Translations under genes and position numbers: made by a program
The notes under the pieces: model-generated
Told to the model about the DNA's origin: nothing
Seen by the model: only the letters and a program-made list of their open reading frames with translations
The model's database searches: none
Part shown: positions 52,034 to 60,602 of the stretch, one piece after another
Layout: each line of letters begins with the position of its first letter
How positions within the stretch are numbered: the first letter of the stretch is position 1
Origin: Methanolobus vulcani
GTDB lineage: Archaea > Halobacteriota > Methanosarcinia > Methanosarcinales > Methanosarcinaceae
Assembly (NCBI RefSeq): GCF_006546655.1
Contig: NZ_VIAQ01000020.1
Location: 62,001-126,000 of the forward strand
Length of the DNA stretch: 64,000 bases
Reading direction: 5' to 3'

Positions 52034-53302
52034 TTATTCTTTTCTCAACCCGGTATATTGGGATTTTCCAAAGCCCACATCTACAATCTTATTCTCTGCA
52101 ACCATTACTGCAAGGAATTTTTTAGCGCCTTCAATACTTAATCCTGTCAGCTCAGCAACTTCAGTATCATCAAAAGGCTCTTCCCTATCGATAAGAGGCA
52201 GAATTTCAGATTCTATTGTTTTATAAGTATCGGGATTGTGCCAGAGCTTTATTCTGTCAGCATTGAATACGGATTCATTATAAATTATTTCATTTGAAGA
52301 TATGTCGTAAAGATAGAGGACAAGTCTTGGATGGATGTAATTTTCAGCCCAGTCTTTAATATCTGCATTCCAATCCGAGTTCACAATACACAGGCTTTTA
52401 TACTGTCCTGCAGGAACCGTAGTTGCTTTTTTCTGGACAAATTCCATAATAGTTCTAAGATTATCAAATGGTTTCCAGTAGGTTTCAAATAAGATAGCAT
52501 TAAGTACCATTTTCCGAAAAATGGTTCCGGAAATATACTTGTCTGAGATTTCTACTTTCCATTTTTTATCTCCTATATATTCACCATCAAATGATACCTC
52601 AGGCTGGTGATTGGAATATTTTTTTTCCAGAATATTCATGTAATTGTAAAGTTTTGAAAGTATTTCCGTATCAATCTCTTTTTTCACATTGTCTTTTTGT
52701 TGTTCTTCCAGGACTTCTTTATTTACAGATGAGCTTGAGATTGTAGGTTCAGGTTTAGTTGCATTTCCTGACCTGCCATAAGTTAGACTGATACTTTCAT
52801 GTTCTGTTTTCTTTATTTCTTTTTTCTCTGGAATTTTCTTATCACGGGACATCACACGTTCTGCACTTGAAGCTTCCATCTGTTTTAGCTTGAATTCATT
52901 AAGAATGTCCTTATCAACATTTATACGCTCATTAAATGCTTTTTTGAAACTCTCAACCATATCGTCCAGTGAAAAAATATCAATGCTATCGGACTTTATT
53001 GTTGATGCAAAAATATCATTCATTTTAGCAGATTCTGCTAAAAGCGTATCTTCAATTCTGTAGAACTCTTCCAGAGTTCCTTTCTTTCCTGAAAAACTGT
53101 CCAGATCCTTATTTTTGATATCTGCAAGTAGCTGGGAAACGGATGATCTGATATTCCGTAACTGAAAATTCAGGTCAGTCTCTTTGTTCTGATATGTTTT
53201 CTGAATCAGCTTTTCAATGGAGCTATAAACATCATTCAGGTTCCTGATGATTGCCTGCCTGTTCTGTTTCTCCAGTTCATTGGGATCTTTTAATCCATCC
53301 AT
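52034..53302 (-). CDS. Coiled-coil and winged-helix protein of the ESCRT-like operon
   Basis: A 422-residue protein, last gene of the minus-strand operon. Residues 1-150 are helical and charged (coiled coil, DPNELEKQNRQAIIRNLNDVYSSI). The middle is low-complexity and charged. A beta-rich globular part follows (about 240-370, CIVNSDWNADIKDWAENYI). The last 55 residues form a likely winged helix (DTEVAELTGLSIEGAKKFLAVMV). Winged helices are typical of ESCRT-II and of CdvB-type ESCRT-III tails, so an adaptor role is possible but unproven. It lies 39 bp downstream of the Vps4-like gene, and AAGGATT precedes the ATG. Confidence 0.6.
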   Translation of the reverse strand: MDGLKDPNELEKQNRQAIIRNLNDVYSSIEKLIQKTYQNKETDLNFQLRNIRSSVSQLLADIKNKDLDSFSGKKGTLEEFYRIEDTLLAESAKMNDIFASTIKSDSIDIFSLDDMVESFKKAFNERINVDKDILNEFKLKQMEASSAERVMSRDKKIPEKKEIKKTEHESISLTYGRSGNATKPEPTISSSSVNKEVLEEQQKDNVKKEIDTEILSKLYNYMNILEKKYSNHQPEVSFDGEYIGDKKWKVEISDKYISGTIFRKMVLNAILFETYWKPFDNLRTIMEFVQKKATTVPAGQYKSLCIVNSDWNADIKDWAENYIHPRLVLYLYDISSNEIIYNESVFNADRIKLWHNPDTYKTIESEILPLIDREEPFDDTEVAELTGLSIEGAKKFLAVMVAENKIVDVGFGKSQYTGLRKE

Positions 53303-53341
53303 CCAATCCTTCCAGCATCTATTGGTTTTGTTAATGTAATC

Positions 53342-54502
53342 TCATTTTTGAACAAGTTCAGAGAATACTTCTTCTTCTCCTGTTTTCTGGACAGCAGTCT
53401 TTGCTTCTATATACCAGCTTACAATAGATGGCTTGCGTTTTTGCAAAACCGTTTCAAAGTCCTGCATTTTTATTTTTCTTGGGTTTCCACCTCTCAGTGC
53501 TTCTCCAAGTGGAATATCAGCAGCTTCTTTGCAAATAGCTGCAAGATCAGCTCCTGAATACGAGTCAGTGATCTCTGAAAGATATGATATGTCCAGATCA
53601 TCATCAATCGGACGTTTTTTCAGGTGTATATGAAGTATGGCTTTTCTGGCTTCAAGGTCAGGTTCAGGAACAAATACAAGTTTACTGAAACGTCCGGGGC
53701 GCCGAAGGGCCGGGTCAATTGCCCATGGCTCATTGGTTGCTGCAAGTACCAGCAGGTCATCGGAAGCTGTATCCACACCATCCATCTGGGCCAGCAGTTC
53801 GTTGACAACCCTTTTTGCGTAATCTTCGCTCTCACTTCTTCTGGTAGCAATGGAATCTATCTCGTCAAAAAAGATGATAGACCTTTTTCCCTGACGTGCG
53901 ATATCAAATATCTGTTTGATATTCTTTTCAGATGCTCCCACCCATTTACTGACAATGGTACTGGTCTTCACACTGATGAATTCTGCACCGCACTCTTTTG
54001 CGGCTGCTTTTGCCATCATGGTCTTACCGCATCCGGGAGGTCCGTAAAGCAGAATTCCTTCTCCAGCCTTTTGACCGTACATCTGGTATAATTCCTTATG
54101 TGTAAAAGGATAGATGATGGCCTTTCGTATTTCCTCTTTAACATCCTCAAGGCCGCCAATATCTGGAAAACCAATGTCTGGAATCTCTTTAAGGAAAACA
54201 TCATCCTTTGTTATGGAAGATTCATCATTATTTCCAGAACTTCTGTTTCCTTCAAGAGTTCCCCCTGATGAGACTGCATTTGAACCTTTCAGTGCCTGGG
54301 CTCTGGCAAAAAGGTGTTCAGCAAGATCACGCTGGGTATTTTTATCCATGTCATCTTTGGACAACATGGATGCATCGTTATACAGCTTTGCAGCCTTCAG
54401 ATACAGTTCCCTGGCTCTTTCAGATTCCTTTCTATCTTCCAGTTCCCTTGCAGCTTTTGCATACCCTCGGGCCTGGGCAGCTAACGTAATGGCTGAGTTC
54501 AA
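53342..54502 (-). CDS. Vps4/CdvC-like AAA ATPase with MIT domain
   Basis: A 386-residue protein. Residues 1-75 form a three-helix MIT-like domain (AITLAAQARGYAKAARELED; RARELYLKAAKLYNDAS; LAEHLFARAQALKG). After a Ser/Gly linker comes one AAA+ module. It has IGGLEDVKEEIRKAI, Walker A GPPGCGKT (154-161), pore loop KWVGASE (about 186-192), Walker B IIFFDEID (209-216), sensor AATNEPWAIDPALRRPGRF and a C-terminal helix. Domain order and length match Vps4/CdvC, which disassembles ESCRT-III filaments. The start is TTG, five bases after GAGGTG. An Snf7-like gene lies 48 bp upstream. The Vps4 beta-domain insertion seems to be missing. Confidence 0.82.
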   Translation of the reverse strand: MNSAITLAAQARGYAKAARELEDRKESERARELYLKAAKLYNDASMLSKDDMDKNTQRDLAEHLFARAQALKGSNAVSSGGTLEGNRSSGNNDESSITKDDVFLKEIPDIGFPDIGGLEDVKEEIRKAIIYPFTHKELYQMYGQKAGEGILLYGPPGCGKTMMAKAAAKECGAEFISVKTSTIVSKWVGASEKNIKQIFDIARQGKRSIIFFDEIDSIATRRSESEDYAKRVVNELLAQMDGVDTASDDLLVLAATNEPWAIDPALRRPGRFSKLVFVPEPDLEARKAILHIHLKKRPIDDDLDISYLSEITDSYSGADLAAICKEAADIPLGEALRGGNPRKIKMQDFETVLQKRKPSIVSWYIEAKTAVQKTGEEEVFSELVQK

Positions 54503-54550
54503 ACAGGCACCTCAATTCAGAACCTGATATTTTCAGAAAAGAATACCGTA

Positions 54551-55120
54551 TTATTCGGTATTTGCCATCTCTGATTCAATCTTCTTTGAAAGTTCATCCT
54601 TTGCAGGCTGTTCACTTGAAAGCTCAGCAAGCAGTTCAGACCTGAGTGAATCCTGCATTTCACTGAGTTCAGTGCCGCCACTCATGGCTGCATCCATGGA
54701 AGCTGTCATCATGCTTGTTGCAGTGTTCACTTTTTCCATAGATGTTCTGATATTGGTCACAGCATCTTCAAGTTTAGAAGTATCAAATCCAAGTTGTTTT
54801 TGCCATTTGCCAAGATCATTACCAATCTCAACAACTTCCTTAAGGCCTGTCTGCATCTCGATGACATCGGTCATGGACTGTGCCATTTCCACCATACTGC
54901 TGATAGTGTTGACCTGACCTTCGACGAGTGAATATCTTCTCGAAGCAACCCTGAACTCTCTGTCATTACCTTTTGCCAGTGCTTCTTTTGCCTGATCTCT
55001 TGACTGGTTCTGCTTCTTGATAAGTTCTTTCTCGCGTGTTGACAACCTTTGTTCTGAAATGGACAGTTTTGTCTTAAGCTCTTCTGGTGATATTTTCTTA
55101 AATGGATTGGTCAATCCCAC
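54551..55120 (-). CDS. ESCRT-III (Snf7/CdvB)-like coiled-coil protein
   Basis: A 189-residue, almost fully helical protein. Its N-terminal half is basic (ELKTKLSISEQRLSTREKELIKK; ALAKGNDREFRVASRRYS) and the C-terminal half acidic, the charge split of ESCRT-III. The order is a long helical hairpin, a MVEMAQSMTDVIEMQTGLKEVV segment like the CHMP alpha3 region, then FDTSKLEDAVTNIRTSMEKV. The C-terminal helix (ELLAELSSEQPAKDELSKKI) could be the MIT-interacting tail. The identification rests on pattern and on the adjacent MIT-AAA gene. The GTG start follows GGAGGAGG and abuts the ribbon-helix-helix stop with no gap. Confidence 0.7.
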   Translation of the reverse strand: MGLTNPFKKISPEELKTKLSISEQRLSTREKELIKKQNQSRDQAKEALAKGNDREFRVASRRYSLVEGQVNTISSMVEMAQSMTDVIEMQTGLKEVVEIGNDLGKWQKQLGFDTSKLEDAVTNIRTSMEKVNTATSMMTASMDAAMSGGTELSEMQDSLRSELLAELSSEQPAKDELSKKIESEMANTE

Positions 55121-55276
55121 TTATAATTCCTCCTCCATTTTCTTCTGTTTCGCAAATCTGATACAAAGCTTCATGGCTTCGGATCTGTTGATTGCTATCC
55201 CCATTTCTACTAATGTATCCAGATATACTTTACTATCTTCTGATATTCTTGCGCTTACAGGATAAGAATTAGCCAT
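55121..55276 (-). CDS. Ribbon-helix-helix regulator (51 residues)
   Basis: A short gene of 51 codons with the RHH pattern: a beta strand (YPVSARISEDSKVYL), helix A (LDTLVEMGIAINR) and helix B (SEAMKLCIRFAKQKK). The proteins act as dimers on palindromes. It is the first gene of the ESCRT-like operon and stops exactly where the Snf7-like gene begins. A palindrome lies 19 bp upstream of the start, suggesting autoregulation and control of the divergent SPFH gene. Confidence 0.7.
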   Translation of the reverse strand: MANSYPVSARISEDSKVYLDTLVEMGIAINRSEAMKLCIRFAKQKKMEEEL

Positions 55277-55294: not shown

Positions 55295-55360
55295 TTGTAT
55301 GCCTATGTATACAATGGAAAACAATATATATAATATTTATTCAATATCTTTATTAGATAT
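55295..55360. promoter_or_regulatory. Divergent promoter with two palindromes between the RHH and SPFH genes
   Basis: TTGTAT-N8-ATACAA (55295-55314) and ATATCT-N5-AGATAT (55344-55360) flank an A/T-rich core (ATATATATAATATTTATT) that can provide TATA boxes on both strands. The first palindrome is the best candidate RHH operator. Confidence 0.5.
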
Positions 55361-55409: not shown

Positions 55410-56702
55410 ATGGCATTTAAGTGGAAAAGAGAAACAGATGACATTGCCAGAGTGGTTCCAAAAAAGCAGGTTGGGGGATTTTTTAGTAAAGCAGTGATCC
55501 TCGCTCCTAATGAAAAGGCAGCCATGGTAAAGAATGGTGTAGTGGATGAGATAGTAGACAGCGGCAAATTGCAGGTAGGAGGTTTATTAAAACCCGGCAA
55601 CATCGGAAAGGATGTGGATGTTGCCCTGATGGATACCTCTCCAAAAGATCTCCAGTGGGCAGAGAATGATCTCTGGACAGGGGATAACCAGAAAGTATCA
55701 TGCAACGGTCTTCTCAGGTTCAGGATACAGGACCCTAAACGTTTTTTCCAGATGCTCTATGCCTATGCCACAACTGACAAAAAAGGAATAAGGGCACTTT
55801 CAATACAGGATATATACAAGCGCCTTGAAAGTGAAGTTATCACTCTTGTCCTTGAGCCAGAAGTGAGGCAGGAAGATATAGAGAAGCTCTATGGTAACAG
55901 GGACCTTCGCCTTAACATTGAGAATGAGCTTGAAATGCGCCTGCGCTCCACGCTATCAATGTGGGGTCTGGAAATGCTGAAGTACACTGTGCAGTGGGAT
56001 CTTGGTTCCTATGGTCAGGTCATGCAGGCAACAAATGATTTCCAGACACGTGAAGAACTTGCTGAACTTGATACTCTTGCAGTTGAAGGAGATTTTGAAC
56101 GCAGGGGCAGGGAGGAAGTTGCAGGTATCCGTGCAGACCAGGCAACAATTGCTACTGGAAATGAGTTCCAGAGAAACCAGAGACTGAAAGATGTCCATTC
56201 TGATCTTGACATTGACAGGTTGCAGCATGAAGCTGATATTCGGGAAGCTCAGGATGCCATCCGTCTTAAAGAGGAATTAAAAATCTCAAAAGCAAGGGGC
56301 ATGAGGGCAGAACTTGAAGTCGATCAGGACATGAAAGACCGTGAACACGGAAGGGACATGGAATACCTGAAACACATAACCGAAGCCGGTGGTTCTGATG
56401 TTGCAAAGACAGTGTCTGAGGGAAGAGAATATGGCCGTATGTCTCCGCAGCAGCTTGAAGCTCTGGCAAAGGTCAAACAAAGCGAAGCTCAGGCAAAAGA
56501 TGACAAGGTTAATTTCATGATGGAAGTAGAAGACAGGGAACGTGCAGATTCCTATCGCAGACAGGAACTTGATGCTTCTATGATGGGAGCTGCACAGGGT
56601 AAACGCTCACCCACCGTCCGAAAATGTCCGGGTTGTGGTTCTACCGTTCCGGCAGAATCAAGTTTCTGCAGTCAGTGTGGGAAAAAGTTAACTGATGTCT
56701 GA
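55410..56702 (+). CDS. SPFH/band 7-domain protein with C-terminal zinc ribbon
   Basis: A 430-residue protein. Residues 1-200 form an SPFH/band-7-like domain (KAVILAPNEKAAMVKNGVV; LLRFRIQDPKRFFQMLY). A long charged coiled-coil region follows (about 210-390, rich in ELAELDTLAVEGDFERRGREE-like heptads). It ends in a zinc ribbon (CPGCGSTVPAESSFCSQCG, 405-423). The layout resembles the YdjI/virion-core-like SPFH group. It has no transmembrane helix, so membrane association would be peripheral. It is transcribed divergently from the ESCRT-like operon over a 133-bp shared promoter. GGGTGATAAG lies before the ATG. Confidence 0.78.
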   Translation: MAFKWKRETDDIARVVPKKQVGGFFSKAVILAPNEKAAMVKNGVVDEIVDSGKLQVGGLLKPGNIGKDVDVALMDTSPKDLQWAENDLWTGDNQKVSCNGLLRFRIQDPKRFFQMLYAYATTDKKGIRALSIQDIYKRLESEVITLVLEPEVRQEDIEKLYGNRDLRLNIENELEMRLRSTLSMWGLEMLKYTVQWDLGSYGQVMQATNDFQTREELAELDTLAVEGDFERRGREEVAGIRADQATIATGNEFQRNQRLKDVHSDLDIDRLQHEADIREAQDAIRLKEELKISKARGMRAELEVDQDMKDREHGRDMEYLKHITEAGGSDVAKTVSEGREYGRMSPQQLEALAKVKQSEAQAKDDKVNFMMEVEDRERADSYRRQELDASMMGAAQGKRSPTVRKCPGCGSTVPAESSFCSQCGKKLTDV

Positions 56703-56804: not shown

Positions 56805-58640
56805 TTGGTACAGAAGCTTCTTCAGTTATTGTGTATAGTTCTCCTGACATGTGCAATGCTAGGGTCCGGTGTAGCTATTGCACCATCCAGTGACTATTAT
56901 GATATAACTCTCACAGAAGGTGAGATCGCAGAGATACAGGATGGTTACTATCTCAGCGTTATTGATGTCAATACCGATAGGGAAACGGCAAGGTTTATTG
57001 TTTCCTATTATGATACTTCAGTGCTTGACCAGTATTATGCAATTGGTGACTACCTCTATTACGAGGACAGTAACATCGTGGTGCAGTTCAAGGTAAGTGA
57101 TGTCTATTATGATTCTTACTATGGTTATGACTATGTGGTCATCTCCGATTTATACCTTTATCCGGATTATACTGTGACCTATGATGATAGTTCTACTGCA
57201 AGGACAGATGTGGACTATTCTGATTTTACTTTCGTGGAGGGTGATGTCGTAGAAATACAGGATGGTTACCATCTAACTGTTGAAGATGTAGATACCTATA
57301 GTGAAACGGTGAGATTCATTTTATCTTACTATGATACTTCGGTGTTGGACCAGTATTATGCAATTGGTGACTACCTCTATTATGAGGATCGTAATATCGT
57401 GGTGCAGTTCAAGGTAAGTGATGTCTATTATGATTCTTACTATGGTTATGACTATGTGGTCATCTCCGATCTATACCTCTATCCGGATTATACTGTGACC
57501 TATGTTTATTCTGACTATGATCGCCCCGATACATCAGATGAAGATGCATTGTATGAGATGATCAGTACTCTTATTTTTATTTTTATAGTGGCTCTTGTAC
57601 TTCGAAAAATATCAAAGAATAGAAAGAAGAATAAAGTAGACAAGAATTCCGGAGATGGAATAGAACCGAAATCCGGTTTTTCAGGCCAGTCACAGAATAA
57701 CCTGCCTGATTCAAAGGGAAATGTTGACGCAGTTAAGAACAGTGCTTCTGTTGCTTCTGTTTCAAAAGATCCAAAAAAGAAACCTGTAATTGTTAAATCG
57801 GCTATCCAGTACAAAGGTTCAAACATACTTTACAAGATAAAGGTAGAAAACCCATCAGACGAACCACTGGGCGATATAACTATCAGTCTCTTTGTTCCGG
57901 AAGTATTCCATGTAAAGGAAAGCCGCAAGAATATTTCAATGCTGCAGTCCGGTGAAGGAAAGACTGTTACATTCATCATCCGACCAACAGGCGAATGTGG
58001 TGATTGTATACTTTCCGGCAATATCAGGTATTATGATTACAGCATGAAGAAACATGTCCAGGTGGACCTGAGTAATAAGATGGTGAATATTGTCTGTCCT
58101 GTGCTGAAAGTAATGGAGATCGATGAGAACAACTGGCGACTTAATGTAAGTTCAATGATGATCGCAGAAGAGGATACCAAAGACCTGGAGATACCGGCTG
58201 AGAATCTCTTTGATATTACAACCCGTATACTGAAAGATCTGAATATGTATATGATAACTCCGGAAGTAACTTCAACACAGCAACTTTTTACCGGCGTTGC
58301 AAGGTTCTATGCGCAGGGGGTTGCCGGTATGAAATATGCAGCTTATATTGAAGTTGTAGGTAAACGTAAATCCCGGCTCATCGTTAAGGCCTGGGCTGAA
58401 AAGGAAGAAGCACTGACAGGTTTTTATCATAAGATCCTTGAGGAGATTGAAAAAAGAACTGATATCAAACTCTTTGTTGATGATTCTCTTACACAGTATA
58501 ATATAAACAGTACCACAATTCAGGATAGTGTAATCCAGCGTTCCAATATTGGAACCGGAAAAAGGAAATGTCCTCAATGTGGACGTGAGGCAGGAGATAA
58601 TGAAAGATTCTGCCTTAAGTGTGGTCAGAAACTTGATTGA
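56805..58640 (+). CDS. Membrane protein with duplicated ectodomain, CARDB-like part and zinc ribbon
   Basis: A 611-residue protein. A signal peptide (about 1-26) is followed by two 107-residue repeats (EGEIAEIQDGYYLSV... and EGDVVEIQDGYHLTV..., each ending VVISDLYLYPDYTVTY). A transmembrane helix (about 247-266, LIFIFIVALVL), a basic linker, a CARDB-like cytoplasmic domain (about 330-430) and a mixed alpha/beta domain (about 440-560) follow. The end is a zinc ribbon (CPQCGREAGDNERFCLKCG). The TTG start follows AGGGTG. It lies in line with the SPFH gene and could be its membrane partner. Confidence 0.7.
   Translation: MVQKLLQLLCIVLLTCAMLGSGVAIAPSSDYYDITLTEGEIAEIQDGYYLSVIDVNTDRETARFIVSYYDTSVLDQYYAIGDYLYYEDSNIVVQFKVSDVYYDSYYGYDYVVISDLYLYPDYTVTYDDSSTARTDVDYSDFTFVEGDVVEIQDGYHLTVEDVDTYSETVRFILSYYDTSVLDQYYAIGDYLYYEDRNIVVQFKVSDVYYDSYYGYDYVVISDLYLYPDYTVTYVYSDYDRPDTSDEDALYEMISTLIFIFIVALVLRKISKNRKKNKVDKNSGDGIEPKSGFSGQSQNNLPDSKGNVDAVKNSASVASVSKDPKKKPVIVKSAIQYKGSNILYKIKVENPSDEPLGDITISLFVPEVFHVKESRKNISMLQSGEGKTVTFIIRPTGECGDCILSGNIRYYDYSMKKHVQVDLSNKMVNIVCPVLKVMEIDENNWRLNVSSMMIAEEDTKDLEIPAENLFDITTRILKDLNMYMITPEVTSTQQLFTGVARFYAQGVAGMKYAAYIEVVGKRKSRLIVKAWAEKEEALTGFYHKILEEIEKRTDIKLFVDDSLTQYNINSTTIQDSVIQRSNIGTGKRKCPQCGREAGDNERFCLKCGQKLD
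57027..57505 (+). repeat. Near-identical 158-bp tandem repeat within the membrane-protein gene
   Basis: The segments 57027-57184 and 57348-57505 differ at about six positions, almost all silent; the period is 321 bp (107 codons). The first halves of the repeat units are more diverged. This points to recent duplication or gene conversion. Confidence 0.8.
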
Positions 58641-58653
58641 ATACAAGATTTTG

Positions 58654-59925
58654 TCACACCACTTTGTGTACACCAAGGTCAAAAGGTTCCTGCTGGCAGA
58701 TTATTTCATTGACCTCAAAGGAAAAGTTCAGGTTTCCAAAATCAATTTTTCCTGAGTTGATCGGTTTTACAACAACTGATGTAAAACCGGATGAATGTGG
58801 CTGGATATCTTTAATACATACATTTGGTTCATGGCATTCTATAAAGGATGAAAAACAACTATTGAAGCATACATTGTGTAGAATATCATCTGATCTATTA
58901 TCGATATATATACCAATGGAATTCCCTACTTCGTGATATAATGATTCCGGCATTTTAATCCTGATATTGACTTCAGGAGTCCGGACACAGTATTTTCCAA
59001 AAGGTTCAGGTCCGATTTTACAATTGTTTCCTCCGATTTTAAAAAATACTTCAAAGCTTCCAAGTTCAATGTCTCCTCCTTTGCAGGGTGTTATGAGATA
59101 TCTGGTATTGAAAACAGATTCTGGTTTTATATTCTTTGTTTCGGAAAAAGCAGTGTCATATTTCAGGTAATCAGGGAAAGAACATTTGACATGCAGTTCT
59201 TCAAGTTCAATGTTTGATTTATTTGTCAGCTTTAATGAGATTTTACTTTCATGTCCAAATTTTAGCTGGTTTTCTATGTCTGCATTTAATTGAAGGTAAG
59301 TATGATTGACCTTTATGTTCTCAAAAAAGAATGGTGGTTTCTGGTGTTTGTGTCTGTCAACCTCAAGATAGAGGTCATAATAACCCATGGAAAGACTACC
59401 TGCTATCATAGGCACAAATGAAATGTTTGCACAGATGGACGATCCCGGTTCGAGTGAACCAAGACTAAGAACTGGTTTGCTGCAAAGGACCGTTGCTGGA
59501 AAAACGACTCGCAACCATATGTTTTCAATTCGCTTATCAGTTGGATTGTTTACTCTTAGACAAAGTGGATTTTTAAATCCTAATTCTGCAGAATCTGCAA
59601 ATCGGTAGTCGACATTAATTGATTCGATTACCTGCATTTCCCTAACTCTTTTTCTTTCGATACCGATTTTCTTTTCATACATCCAGAATAAATATAGCGG
59701 TATGTATAGGAGAATTACATACATCGGAGCACTGGCGATGTAGGCCGGATCAGGTCTACTTGTAACTGAAAGTACGCGGGTCACAGTAAAGAATGAGGTA
59801 AGCATGACCCAGAGGAATACATAGAATTGAAAGAAGATTCCAATTCTTCCACCTGCTTCATTTTGAAGTGTGTAGGTGAGGGATCTTGTAATATCATTCA
59901 AAGGTCCCAGGTTCAGTTGAATCAC
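58654..59925 (-). CDS. Membrane protein with tandem CARDB-like domains
   Basis: A 423-residue protein. Two N-terminal transmembrane helices (FFQFYVFLWVMLTSFFTV; MYVILLYIPLYLFWMY, within residues 25-85) are followed by about three beta-sandwich repeats of CARDB/DUF11 type (CLRVNNPTDKRIENIWLRVVFP; ISLKLTNKSNIELEELHVKCSFP; IGIYIDNRSDDILHNVCFNSCF). It resembles the CARDB-like part of the convergent neighbour, only 13 bp away. The GTG start at 59925 lies inside an AAAAGGTGATT sequence, so a later start is possible. It probably belongs to the same membrane system, but this is inferred from position. Confidence 0.6.
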   Translation of the reverse strand: MIQLNLGPLNDITRSLTYTLQNEAGGRIGIFFQFYVFLWVMLTSFFTVTRVLSVTSRPDPAYIASAPMYVILLYIPLYLFWMYEKKIGIERKRVREMQVIESINVDYRFADSAELGFKNPLCLRVNNPTDKRIENIWLRVVFPATVLCSKPVLSLGSLEPGSSICANISFVPMIAGSLSMGYYDLYLEVDRHKHQKPPFFFENIKVNHTYLQLNADIENQLKFGHESKISLKLTNKSNIELEELHVKCSFPDYLKYDTAFSETKNIKPESVFNTRYLITPCKGGDIELGSFEVFFKIGGNNCKIGPEPFGKYCVRTPEVNIRIKMPESLYHEVGNSIGIYIDNRSDDILHNVCFNSCFSSFIECHEPNVCIKDIQPHSSGFTSVVVKPINSGKIDFGNLNFSFEVNEIICQQEPFDLGVHKVV

Positions 59926-60110: not shown

Positions 60111-60158
60111 ATAGTTATATATTGAATTAATTAGAAATGTCCTTAAAGGAGGTTATTG

Positions 60159-60602
60159 ATGAGACTTGAGCTTATAGATAAAAGATCAAGATTTGATGAT
60201 TTTGAAAAGGAGTATCGTGACTCCAAAGCATACCTTCGCAGGGCAAAATTGTTCCTAAAACAAGGACAGGATCATAGTGTTGTGTTTAATGTAGCTTCAC
60301 TGGCTCTTGAACGCTATCTTGTGGCACTTTGTTACCTTCATGATATGGAGCCTTTCAACCACAATTATACCTGTTTGATGGATACTGTTGAGATGTTCAT
60401 GGAACCACCGGAAGAGCTCAATAAGGAGATAAGGTCACTGGATGAGATCTTTGGCATCTGTAGCATTGATGATTACTTCCACGGAGAACCAGAGGTTTCT
60501 GACATGGAGCGTATTCTGGGAATGTGTGAAGAAGTGGAAGAACTTTTTGATCAGGATAAAATTAATTCATTCAGGGAATCTTTGTTAACCGACTCTGAAT
60601 AA
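60159..60602 (+). CDS. HEPN-like helical protein
   Basis: A 147-residue all-helical protein. The segment YLRRAKLFLKQGQDHSVVFNVASLALERYLVALCYLHD (split, about 25-65) is typical of HEPN folds, but the catalytic RxxxxH of HEPN RNases is not seen. No nucleotidyltransferase partner is adjacent, so a standard toxin-antitoxin pair is unlikely. The ATG at 60159 has AAAGGAGG six bases upstream, so it is preferred over the TTG at 60156. The substrate or partner is unknown. Confidence 0.55.
   Translation: MRLELIDKRSRFDDFEKEYRDSKAYLRRAKLFLKQGQDHSVVFNVASLALERYLVALCYLHDMEPFNHNYTCLMDTVEMFMEPPEELNKEIRSLDEIFGICSIDDYFHGEPEVSDMERILGMCEEVEELFDQDKINSFRESLLTDSE

Follow-up and report, generated by a model that had tools for sequence, protein, structure and literature searches.

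The Meth_adaptin loci described by Makarova et al. (2024, PMC10936438) combine Vps4 and ESCRT-III, components of the endosomal sorting complexes required for transport (ESCRT), with an SPFH-coiled-coil-zinc-ribbon protein and two adaptin-appendage-like proteins, one of which carries a zinc ribbon; the Cdv system of TACK archaea, bacterial PspA/Vipp1 and the Borgs offer further points of comparison. Here we analyse a window of 64,000 nucleotides from Methanolobus vulcani (assembly GCF_006546655.1, contig NZ_VIAQ01000020.1, positions 62,001 to 126,000; coordinates below count from the first letter of the window), in which the genes for a ribbon-helix-helix-like (RHH) protein, an ESCRT-III-like protein (Esc), an ATPase with MIT and AAA domains (MIT-AAA) and a coiled-coil protein (L) follow one another on the minus strand within 52034-55276, all with open reading frames. 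Judged by sequence, the gene content fits closely with Meth_adaptin, so that the core idea is already published, and because this system type has been described (PMC10936438) the locus is less novel than it first appeared. We consider it likely that an accessory ESCRT system of Meth_adaptin type is encoded here, kept off until stress and serving in membrane repair, patching or vesicle release rather than in division.

A preliminary description of this DNA had proposed a four-gene minus-strand operon, which is confirmed by the open frames, the conserved gene order and purifying selection. Its boundary at 52034-55276 was drawn too narrowly; the conserved unit reaches at least 58640 and takes in an SPFH protein and a second zinc-ribbon protein (ZnR2), both transcribed in the opposite direction to the RHH operon. 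The GTG start of Esc directly abuts the RHH stop codon, and a spacer of 133 bp separates RHH from the SPFH gene.

It is the MIT domain that marks the ATPase as Vps4-like. Pfam finds MIT (E 0.022, residues 10-72), AAA (2e-44) and AAA_lid_3 (4.1e-11) in Vps4 order and, while the MIT score of the window sequence is 15.3 bits against a cut-off of 30, MIT is matched by 15/16 members of the ATPase family at E<=1 (best 1.3e-5, the scores shown being below cut-off). The AlphaFold2 (AF2) model of the ATPase (predicted local distance difference test score, pLDDT, 80.7) has three helices at the N-terminus (4-23, 27-47 and 51-73), and together the family matches, the three-helix N-terminus and the Pfam order bear out the Vps4 domain order claimed earlier. 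What follows the MIT domain is a single AAA module with a C-terminal helix (Pfam, AF2). The Vps4_C match is weak (E 0.03, 14.7 bits versus a cut-off of 21.3), and NCBIfam CdvC aligns residues 1-367 of 386 with model positions 1-360 at 9.6e-71, below its cut-off. By fold, the ATPase resembles Metallosphaera sedula Vps4 (4d82; Z 27.3, root-mean-square deviation (rmsd) 3.4 over 264 aligned residues, 39% identity) and 4lcb (Z 26.1), but the D2 domain of p97 scores equally high, and for this reason the Vps4 assignment rests on the MIT domain.

Esc is probably a divergent ESCRT-III protein, as far as sequence and model allow. AF2 predicts helices at residues 12-50, 53-109, 115-147, 149-168 and 174-186 (pLDDT 74.6, predicted template modelling score 0.51), that is, a long alpha1-alpha2/3 hairpin followed by shorter helices in the layout of ESCRT-III. 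The eleven highest-ranking Foldseek rows are CHMP1B, Vipp1, Asgard ESCRT-IIIB and CdvB chains (E 0.04-0.15), and the Snf7 core 8wb6 superposes on the model over 102/102 residues (VIA-align; rmsd 2.4 A, Z 9.6, 19% identity). Pfam Snf7 matches 18/20 members of the Esc family at E<=1 (best 2.7e-4), and in the window protein the match covers residues 18-168. The basic-to-acidic charge split that had been reported for this 189-residue protein is real, with a net charge of +6 over residues 1-70 and -9 over residues 110-189, and it keeps the same signs in 20/20 sequences (+6 to +8 N-terminally, -10 to -4 C-terminally). In the C-terminal helix L177, I181 and E184 are invariant in 20/20 and position 185 is M or L, although the helix is no exact fit to the MIM1 consensus of MIT-interacting motifs.

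Several results weigh against this assignment. The fold prediction for 54551-55120 upholds the helical hairpin, but not a significant fold match: Foldseek gave zero matches at E<=0.001. The Snf7 score of the window protein is 16.1 bits against a Pfam cut-off of 27.3 (E 0.0093), Stathmin ranks above it (8.6e-4), and Flagellin_C matches 19/20 family members. A Snf7 search of the organism's own genome misses Esc and returns nothing at E<=0.001, and across 392 genomes of the phylum Snf7 matched 26 genomes, 0 of them over the cut-off. When the Esc profile was compared with A7, a two-sequence profile of ESCRT-III-like proteins from another archaeal family, the E value was 0.25, close to the controls L (0.37) and SPFH (0.41), all the profiles compared being very shallow. 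A profile search of the PDB with the Esc family retrieved no ESCRT-III chain and 6 weak unrelated matches. Finally, BAR domains outscore Snf7 in VIA-align with Z up to 11.9, where Z below about 13 is common for helical bundles.

It might be argued that Esc is no ESCRT-III homolog but a membrane scaffold of another coiled-coil kind, BAR-like for instance, which MIT-AAA disassembles through an analogous mechanism, and the rank of the BAR domains, the sub-threshold Snf7 matches and the negative profile comparison all speak for it. We regard this as unlikely: the Snf7 core fits Esc with a lower rmsd and a higher identity than the BAR rows, whose identities are 4-13%, Foldseek places chains of the ESCRT-III superfamily first, no BAR family occurs among the 25 listed of the 28 Pfam families matched by the 20 Esc members, and Esc has both an MIT partner and an acidic C-terminal helix.

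Other proteins of this kind were encountered in the same searches. Of the Snf7-matched stretches in the phylum, 12 were inspected and several are PspA-like by eye. Those of G286 and G327 encode an ESCRT-III-like protein of a different type, whose gene in G286 adjoins a Vps4_C ATPase and kinase genes. Such an arrangement in a family other than that of the window, an ESCRT-III-like gene together with PEGA/PQQ kinases and a Vps4_C ATPase at L125:238-8981, resembles the published Main clade. The own genome also has one PspA/IM30 gene (G000:C14:362582-363271, L042).

Among named records, those closest to Esc come from Methanolobus (91-96% identity), and 20 named loci with Esc relatives were found. 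Esc is present in 21/119 genomes of the order, the own genome included, and in 21/392 of the phylum, one of these being a 53-residue fragment with a stop; it is present in 10/20 sampled genomes of the genus. In 41 loci, which combine two sets (L001-L021 and L022-L041) with genomes partly repeated, RHH adjoins Esc in 40, a divergent SPFH gene is present in 40 and the ATPase lies within the examined stretch in 34; the misses are short stretches, contig ends, or cases where the ATPase is 12 kb off (L018/L041). The module genes are under purifying selection, the ratio of nonsynonymous to synonymous substitution (dN/dS) being 0.030 for Esc, 0.016-0.049 for RHH and 0.036-0.045 for the ATPase (three pairs each, with dS > 1 in some). 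Among the 119 genomes SPFH occurs in 20/21 with Esc, G040 having Esc (the fragment) without SPFH and G038 the reverse, and L occurs in 19/21 and in 4 genomes without Esc; the thresholds behind these counts, 99 bits for SPFH and 100 bits for L, were chosen after the lists had been inspected.

The flanking genes, IF2 and S6e by eye, are common to the locus in Methanolobus and Methanococcoides. At the syntenic site (L146/L147 set), the Esc-less genome G117 keeps an L fragment, the membrane protein gene Ig, pieces of a ZnR2-type zinc ribbon and transposase-like genes. G108, likewise Esc-less, has also lost the ATPase, RHH and SPFH but retains the 3' part of ZnR2 and an intact-looking L; the latter is a 433-aa open reading frame for which one stop was scored, as it was in the Esc-positive G115. 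Such leftovers in Esc-less genomes suggest that the family inherited the system from its ancestor and lost it several times. A search of plasmids with the Esc profile found none.

Table. Features of the locus and of related stretches (positions in the window, or in the named locus)
Feature	Position	Strand	Product and remarks	Basis
L	52034..53302	-	422 aa; N-terminal coiled coil, globular middle, C-terminal winged-helix-like domain	By eye and weak matches
MIT-AAA ATPase, Vps4/CdvC-like	53342..54502	-	386 aa, TTG start	Pfam, NCBIfam, AF2
Esc, ESCRT-III-like	54551..55120	-	189 aa, GTG start	AF2, Foldseek, Pfam Snf7
Esc C-terminal helix	54557..54601	-	Residues 174-188; candidate MIT-interacting motif (putative assignment)	Column counts (n=20) and AF2
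RHH, ribbon-helix-helix-like	55121..55276	-	51 aa; first gene of operon	Translation, NCBIfam AbmR partial match, position beside Esc
Operator-like 16-mer GTTTTCCATTGTATAC	55307..55322	-	Left half of near-palindrome, clearest in G015 as GTTTTCCATTGTATACAATAGAAAAC	Conservation
TATA-box-like TATTATATATATT	55323..55335	-	Immediately upstream of 16-mer; putative promoter element	Sequence reading
SPFH/Band-7 protein	55410..56702	+	C-terminal zinc ribbon; divergent	Pfam Band_7, Zn_Ribbon_1
ZnR2	56805..58640	+	Hydrophobic segments, Ig/adaptin-appendage-like region, C-terminal zinc ribbon	Pfam, hydrophobicity
Ig	58654..59925	-	Two hydrophobic segments, then Ig-like region; membership likely	Pfam Transglut_C, homologues in locus
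HEPN-domain protein	60156..60602	+	Edge of unit; membership uncertain	Pfam HEPN 6.5e-7
Viral small-protein/Esc-like/MIT-AAA stretches	L195:4249-6547; L202:3961-7089; L208:144-2491			IMG/VR
Vps4-type ATPase-diadenylate cyclase fusions, Methanoperedens	L164:4217-5899; L150:932-2722; L165:4707-6506; L166:2915-4708			

RHH itself has zero Pfam matches, and its NCBIfam AbmR match is partial (1.7e-7, 31 bits) and far under the cut-off. The spacer between RHH and SPFH is poorly conserved save for a TATA-like stretch followed by GTTTTCYATTGTATACA. The exact 16-mer occurs in 21/119 genomes, against 0 for the same string read backwards and a chance expectation of about 0.8 over this genome set (from the base composition of the window and an assumed 2.4-Mb genome). 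In 20/21 of the genomes with exact copies it stands no more than about 130 bp upstream of RHH; the remaining copy, in G085, lies away from Esc and is in keeping with the number expected by chance. Co-occurrence of the 16-mer and Esc gives a Fisher p of 1.8e-20 with genomes counted as independent and kinship ignored, and the 16-mer is absent from L029, L032 (a Methanomethylovorans metagenome-assembled genome) and G040. We considered a genome-wide regulon and rejected it: the own genome has a single exact copy, and 7 sites with <=2 mismatches against 4 for the control. The 16-bp element is a likely dedicated switch of the module, and RHH presumably autoregulates its own operon through the near-palindrome. 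RHH factors that act on division genes have been reported from other archaea, in that aCcr1 inhibits cdvA expression in Saccharolobus and CdrS regulates division genes including ftsZ (PMC7617429).

The L family has weak winged-helix-type Pfam matches, including EAP30/Vps36 in 1/15 members (E 0.0045). The SPFH protein matches Band_7 (4.6e-7) and Zn_Ribbon_1 (2.1e-5), and the ZnR2 family, with hydrophobic stretches at residues 1-19 and 246-264 of the protein, matches Zn_Ribbon_1 in 13/13 members and Alpha_adaptinC2 in 6/13 (best 1.5e-4). Ig also has hydrophobic stretches and matches Transglut_C slightly under the cut-off (8.1e-6); its homolog sits between ATPase and L in L023, L025, L026 and L028, while L022-L025 and L028 have a HEPN gene on the ZnR2 side. 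No useful match came from searching the PDB with SPFH, L, ZnR2 or Ig. In several loci the operon also includes Ig-like, zinc-ribbon and HEAT-repeat genes. We note separately that HEAT-repeat proteins in the locus match Adaptin_N (L038:1450-2259, 1e-11; L031:12413-13282, 4.2e-13), one of them with a zinc ribbon; these matches may reflect generic HEAT similarity.

In Methanoperedens the ATPase is joined to a predicted signalling-enzyme domain. The Esc contig of G091 (genus g13) carries, 12 kb away, a 560-aa protein in which MIT-AAA (profile A2 1.8e-185, MIT 0.0032) ends in a DisA-type diadenylate cyclase (DAC) domain (3.6e-16). Full-length fusions of an MIT-like domain, Vps4 and DAC also occur in G022, G085 and G097 (DAC about 1e-16 each); Pfam MIT is unmatched in these three at E<=0.1, and KATNA1_MIT reaches E 0.08 in G022 and 0.048 in G085. 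The G022 and G085 fusions adjoin a 203-aa helical protein, and because of this neighbor and the diverged SPFH and L homologs found elsewhere in both genomes they apparently belong to a second, diverged ESCRT-like system. Genes of a second, diverged set of this kind, which has SPFH, L-like, appendage and helical proteins of its own, were seen at L142:7169-15001, L143:370-13957, L144:6108-16572 and L150:238-846.

An N-terminal MIT domain was also found in 19/20 stand-alone DAC proteins of g13 and g21 (L172, L173, L175-L192), a sample picked from at least about 30 in the Methanoperedens family. Their scores with an MIT profile from the ATPase family of the window are 18.9-43.4 bits, compared with 9.4 for the best of 2500 shuffles, and Pfam MIT agrees, below its cut-off, in 4/5 of those checked; no MIT was found in the stand-alone cyclases of the window's own family (0/3) or of g17 (0/2). 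LDG and G[TG]RH are conserved in nine aligned DAC proteins. The DGA motif reported for DacZ (PMC6741144) is kept in G091, the others having LDGV or LDGI. These MIT-DAC proteins hint at a putative second-messenger link to ESCRT; a literature search for c-di-AMP with ESCRT in archaea found no report of such a link, judged by abstract, and one for diadenylate cyclase with Vps4 in archaea found nothing related.

The Esc/MIT-AAA pair is found on viral contigs as well. Scanning IMG/VR with the Esc profile gave one contig, IMGVR_UViG_3300035038_000021, on which an Esc-like gene (vEsc; A1 3.3e-41, 42% identity) overlaps MIT-AAA (A2 8e-120, 48%); ahead of it lie genes for two small proteins that both contain a hydrophobic stretch. 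Further scans, made with the viral ATPase, added IMGVR_UViG_3300035102_000171 and the 4,750-base fragment IMGVR_UViG_3300036943_000163. The former has an Esc-like gene (A1 1.1e-6), an 89-aa gene and then MIT-AAA (6.9e-143), with a hydrophobic stretch, by the criterion used here, in 1/2 small upstream proteins; its Esc-like protein scores 18.9 bits with A1, compared with 11.2 for the best of 2000 shuffles. Among 83 viral loci (L202-L285 without L205, the second viral-ATPase scan contributing the best 80 of 84), MIT matches occur on exactly 3 contigs, and in 3/3 the Esc-like gene lies directly or one gene upstream. This co-occurrence makes the viral contigs our strongest test of the core pair, with the qualification that the EscV profile includes two viral proteins and that only its match on L208 is independent, the other two resting on the chromosomal profile A1.

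The two larger contigs are 30-35 kb long and carry tailed-virus genes. The terminase of IMGVR_UViG_3300035038_000021 is 40.5% identical over 88% to that of phage THSA-485A, the proteins in the capsid place of the first and second contigs are 38% and 39.5% identical to proteins of Caudoviricetes vir524 (host Methanomicrobiales), and the protein in the portal place of IMGVR_UViG_3300035102_000171 is 35% identical to another, the matched vir524 proteins being annotated as hypothetical and capsid and portal being our own readings. A 24.8-kb stretch of vir524 had zero matches to the module profiles, and no viral Esc was found in phage records. With somewhat less than even confidence, we propose that Esc/MIT-AAA is a portable membrane-scission unit: an egress or remodelling cassette that tailed viruses of methanogens or their relatives would keep in the virion gene block beside small hydrophobic proteins, wired to c-di-AMP in Methanoperedens and switched by RHH on chromosomes. 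If true, ESCRT fission would be a process shared by stress and viruses in methanogens and their kin, and the viral pairs would represent a tailed virus bringing its own ESCRT-III/Vps4 scission machine.

Alternatively, the module might be mainly anti-viral or exploited by viruses, host and virus sharing the core pair because they need it to release virions or vesicles. The three IMG/VR contigs would suit such a role, as would the patchy presence of the module and its remnants; the profiles of the other chromosomal partners, however, had zero matches in the viral stretches scanned, and we think this explanation quite improbable. That the system joins division alongside FtsZ, in the way that Cdv serves TACK archaea and Sulfolobus acidocaldarius divides by means of ESCRT-III and Vps4 (PMC7613921), is more doubtful again, given its absence from 10/20 sampled genomes of the genus, the FtsZ/tubulin-family genes of the own genome and the argument of Makarova et al. 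that FtsZ-bearing archaea do not use their complex ESCRTs to divide (PMC10936438).

We return to an accessory ESCRT system of Meth_adaptin type. Gene content, conserved order, co-occurrence, selection, the MIT-Vps4 layout and the promoter element are directly established, and beyond these a mechanism can be pictured in which opened Esc monomers would assemble into a polymer on the cytoplasmic side of the cell membrane. The ATPase, a hexamer docked through its MIT domain on the acidic helix at the Esc C-terminus, would extract Esc subunits, remodelling or recycling the polymer and bending or cutting the membrane. The parts of membrane organiser, adaptors and nucleator might fall to SPFH, the zinc-ribbon protein with its appendage-like region, Ig as a membrane protein, and L. 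RHH would bind the near-palindrome beside its own TATA box and hold the operon off until a stimulus arrives, most likely envelope or osmotic stress; we infer the stress role because DAC domains are fused to the ATPase or to MIT in Methanoperedens and c-di-AMP is tied to osmoregulation in Haloferax (PMC6741144). The likely job would be membrane repair, patching or vesicle release and not division, because the own genome has three FtsZ/tubulin-family genes and half of the sampled genus genomes manage without the system. Of the ESCRT-like accessory machine suggested at the outset, the predicted Esc hairpin and the MIT ATPase hold up, and a non-division role fits a genome with FtsZ/tubulin-family genes and a PspA, while the ESCRT-III identity of Esc is weakened by the sub-threshold Snf7 score, the higher BAR scores and the negative profile comparison.

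A regulated ESCRT-type system would in this way be available in cultured methanogens (named Methanolobus strains), where its presence or absence among close species makes a euryarchaeal ESCRT role testable and the operator offers a handle for switching the system on. If ESCRT is indeed under the control of a second messenger, the MIT-cyclase fusions would be its earliest sign within the literature searched. As far as we have searched, the operator-like 16-mer, the loss of the module with remnants and the Methanoperedens MIT/DAC fusions look new, and a search for Methanolobus with ESCRT found nothing; the viral Esc-like/MIT-AAA pairs are reported without a claim of priority, the literature on viral pairs not having been searched.

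The closest match remains Meth_adaptin, with which the locus shares a Vps4-like ATPase, an ESCRT-III or ESCRT-III-like protein, an SPFH protein with a zinc ribbon and, less clearly, appendage-like proteins. The main text of Makarova et al. does not contain the words RHH or ribbon-helix, whereas the window locus has an RHH gene, and the paragraph on Meth_adaptin names no winged-helix protein, whereas L is present here. The Meth_adaptin partners ProX and GOLD were not recognised by eye near the window locus, no profile search having been made, and the published text speaks of Methanobacteriales, whereas the named loci here are Methanosarcinales (PMC10936438). Candidates for the two appendage proteins are ZnR2, matching Alpha_adaptinC2 in part of its family, and Ig, whose sole relevant match is Transglut_C just under the cut-off. 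The example accessions for the published type are reportedly from Methanosalsum.

With the Cdv system of TACK archaea the locus shares a core of MIT-AAA and an ESCRT-III-like protein, the colinearity of NCBIfam CdvC with the ATPase and the involvement of an RHH factor, aCcr1 acting there on cdvA (PMC7617429); it differs in that no CdvA was recognised by eye in the window locus, no profile search having been made, that the own genome has FtsZ/tubulin-family genes and that the CdvC score is below cut-off. Bacterial PspA/Vipp1 would belong to the same superfamily if Esc is ESCRT-III, and an association of PspA with SPFH/band-7 proteins is known (PMC10936438, PMC11237479), but the own genome has a separate PspA and Esc has an MIT-AAA partner. 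Borgs, extrachromosomal elements of archaea that oxidise methane, also have genes for ESCRT-III-like proteins (PMC12660748); the two larger virus contigs described here differ in being 30-35 kb elements with tailed-virus genes, and they carry the ATPase as well.

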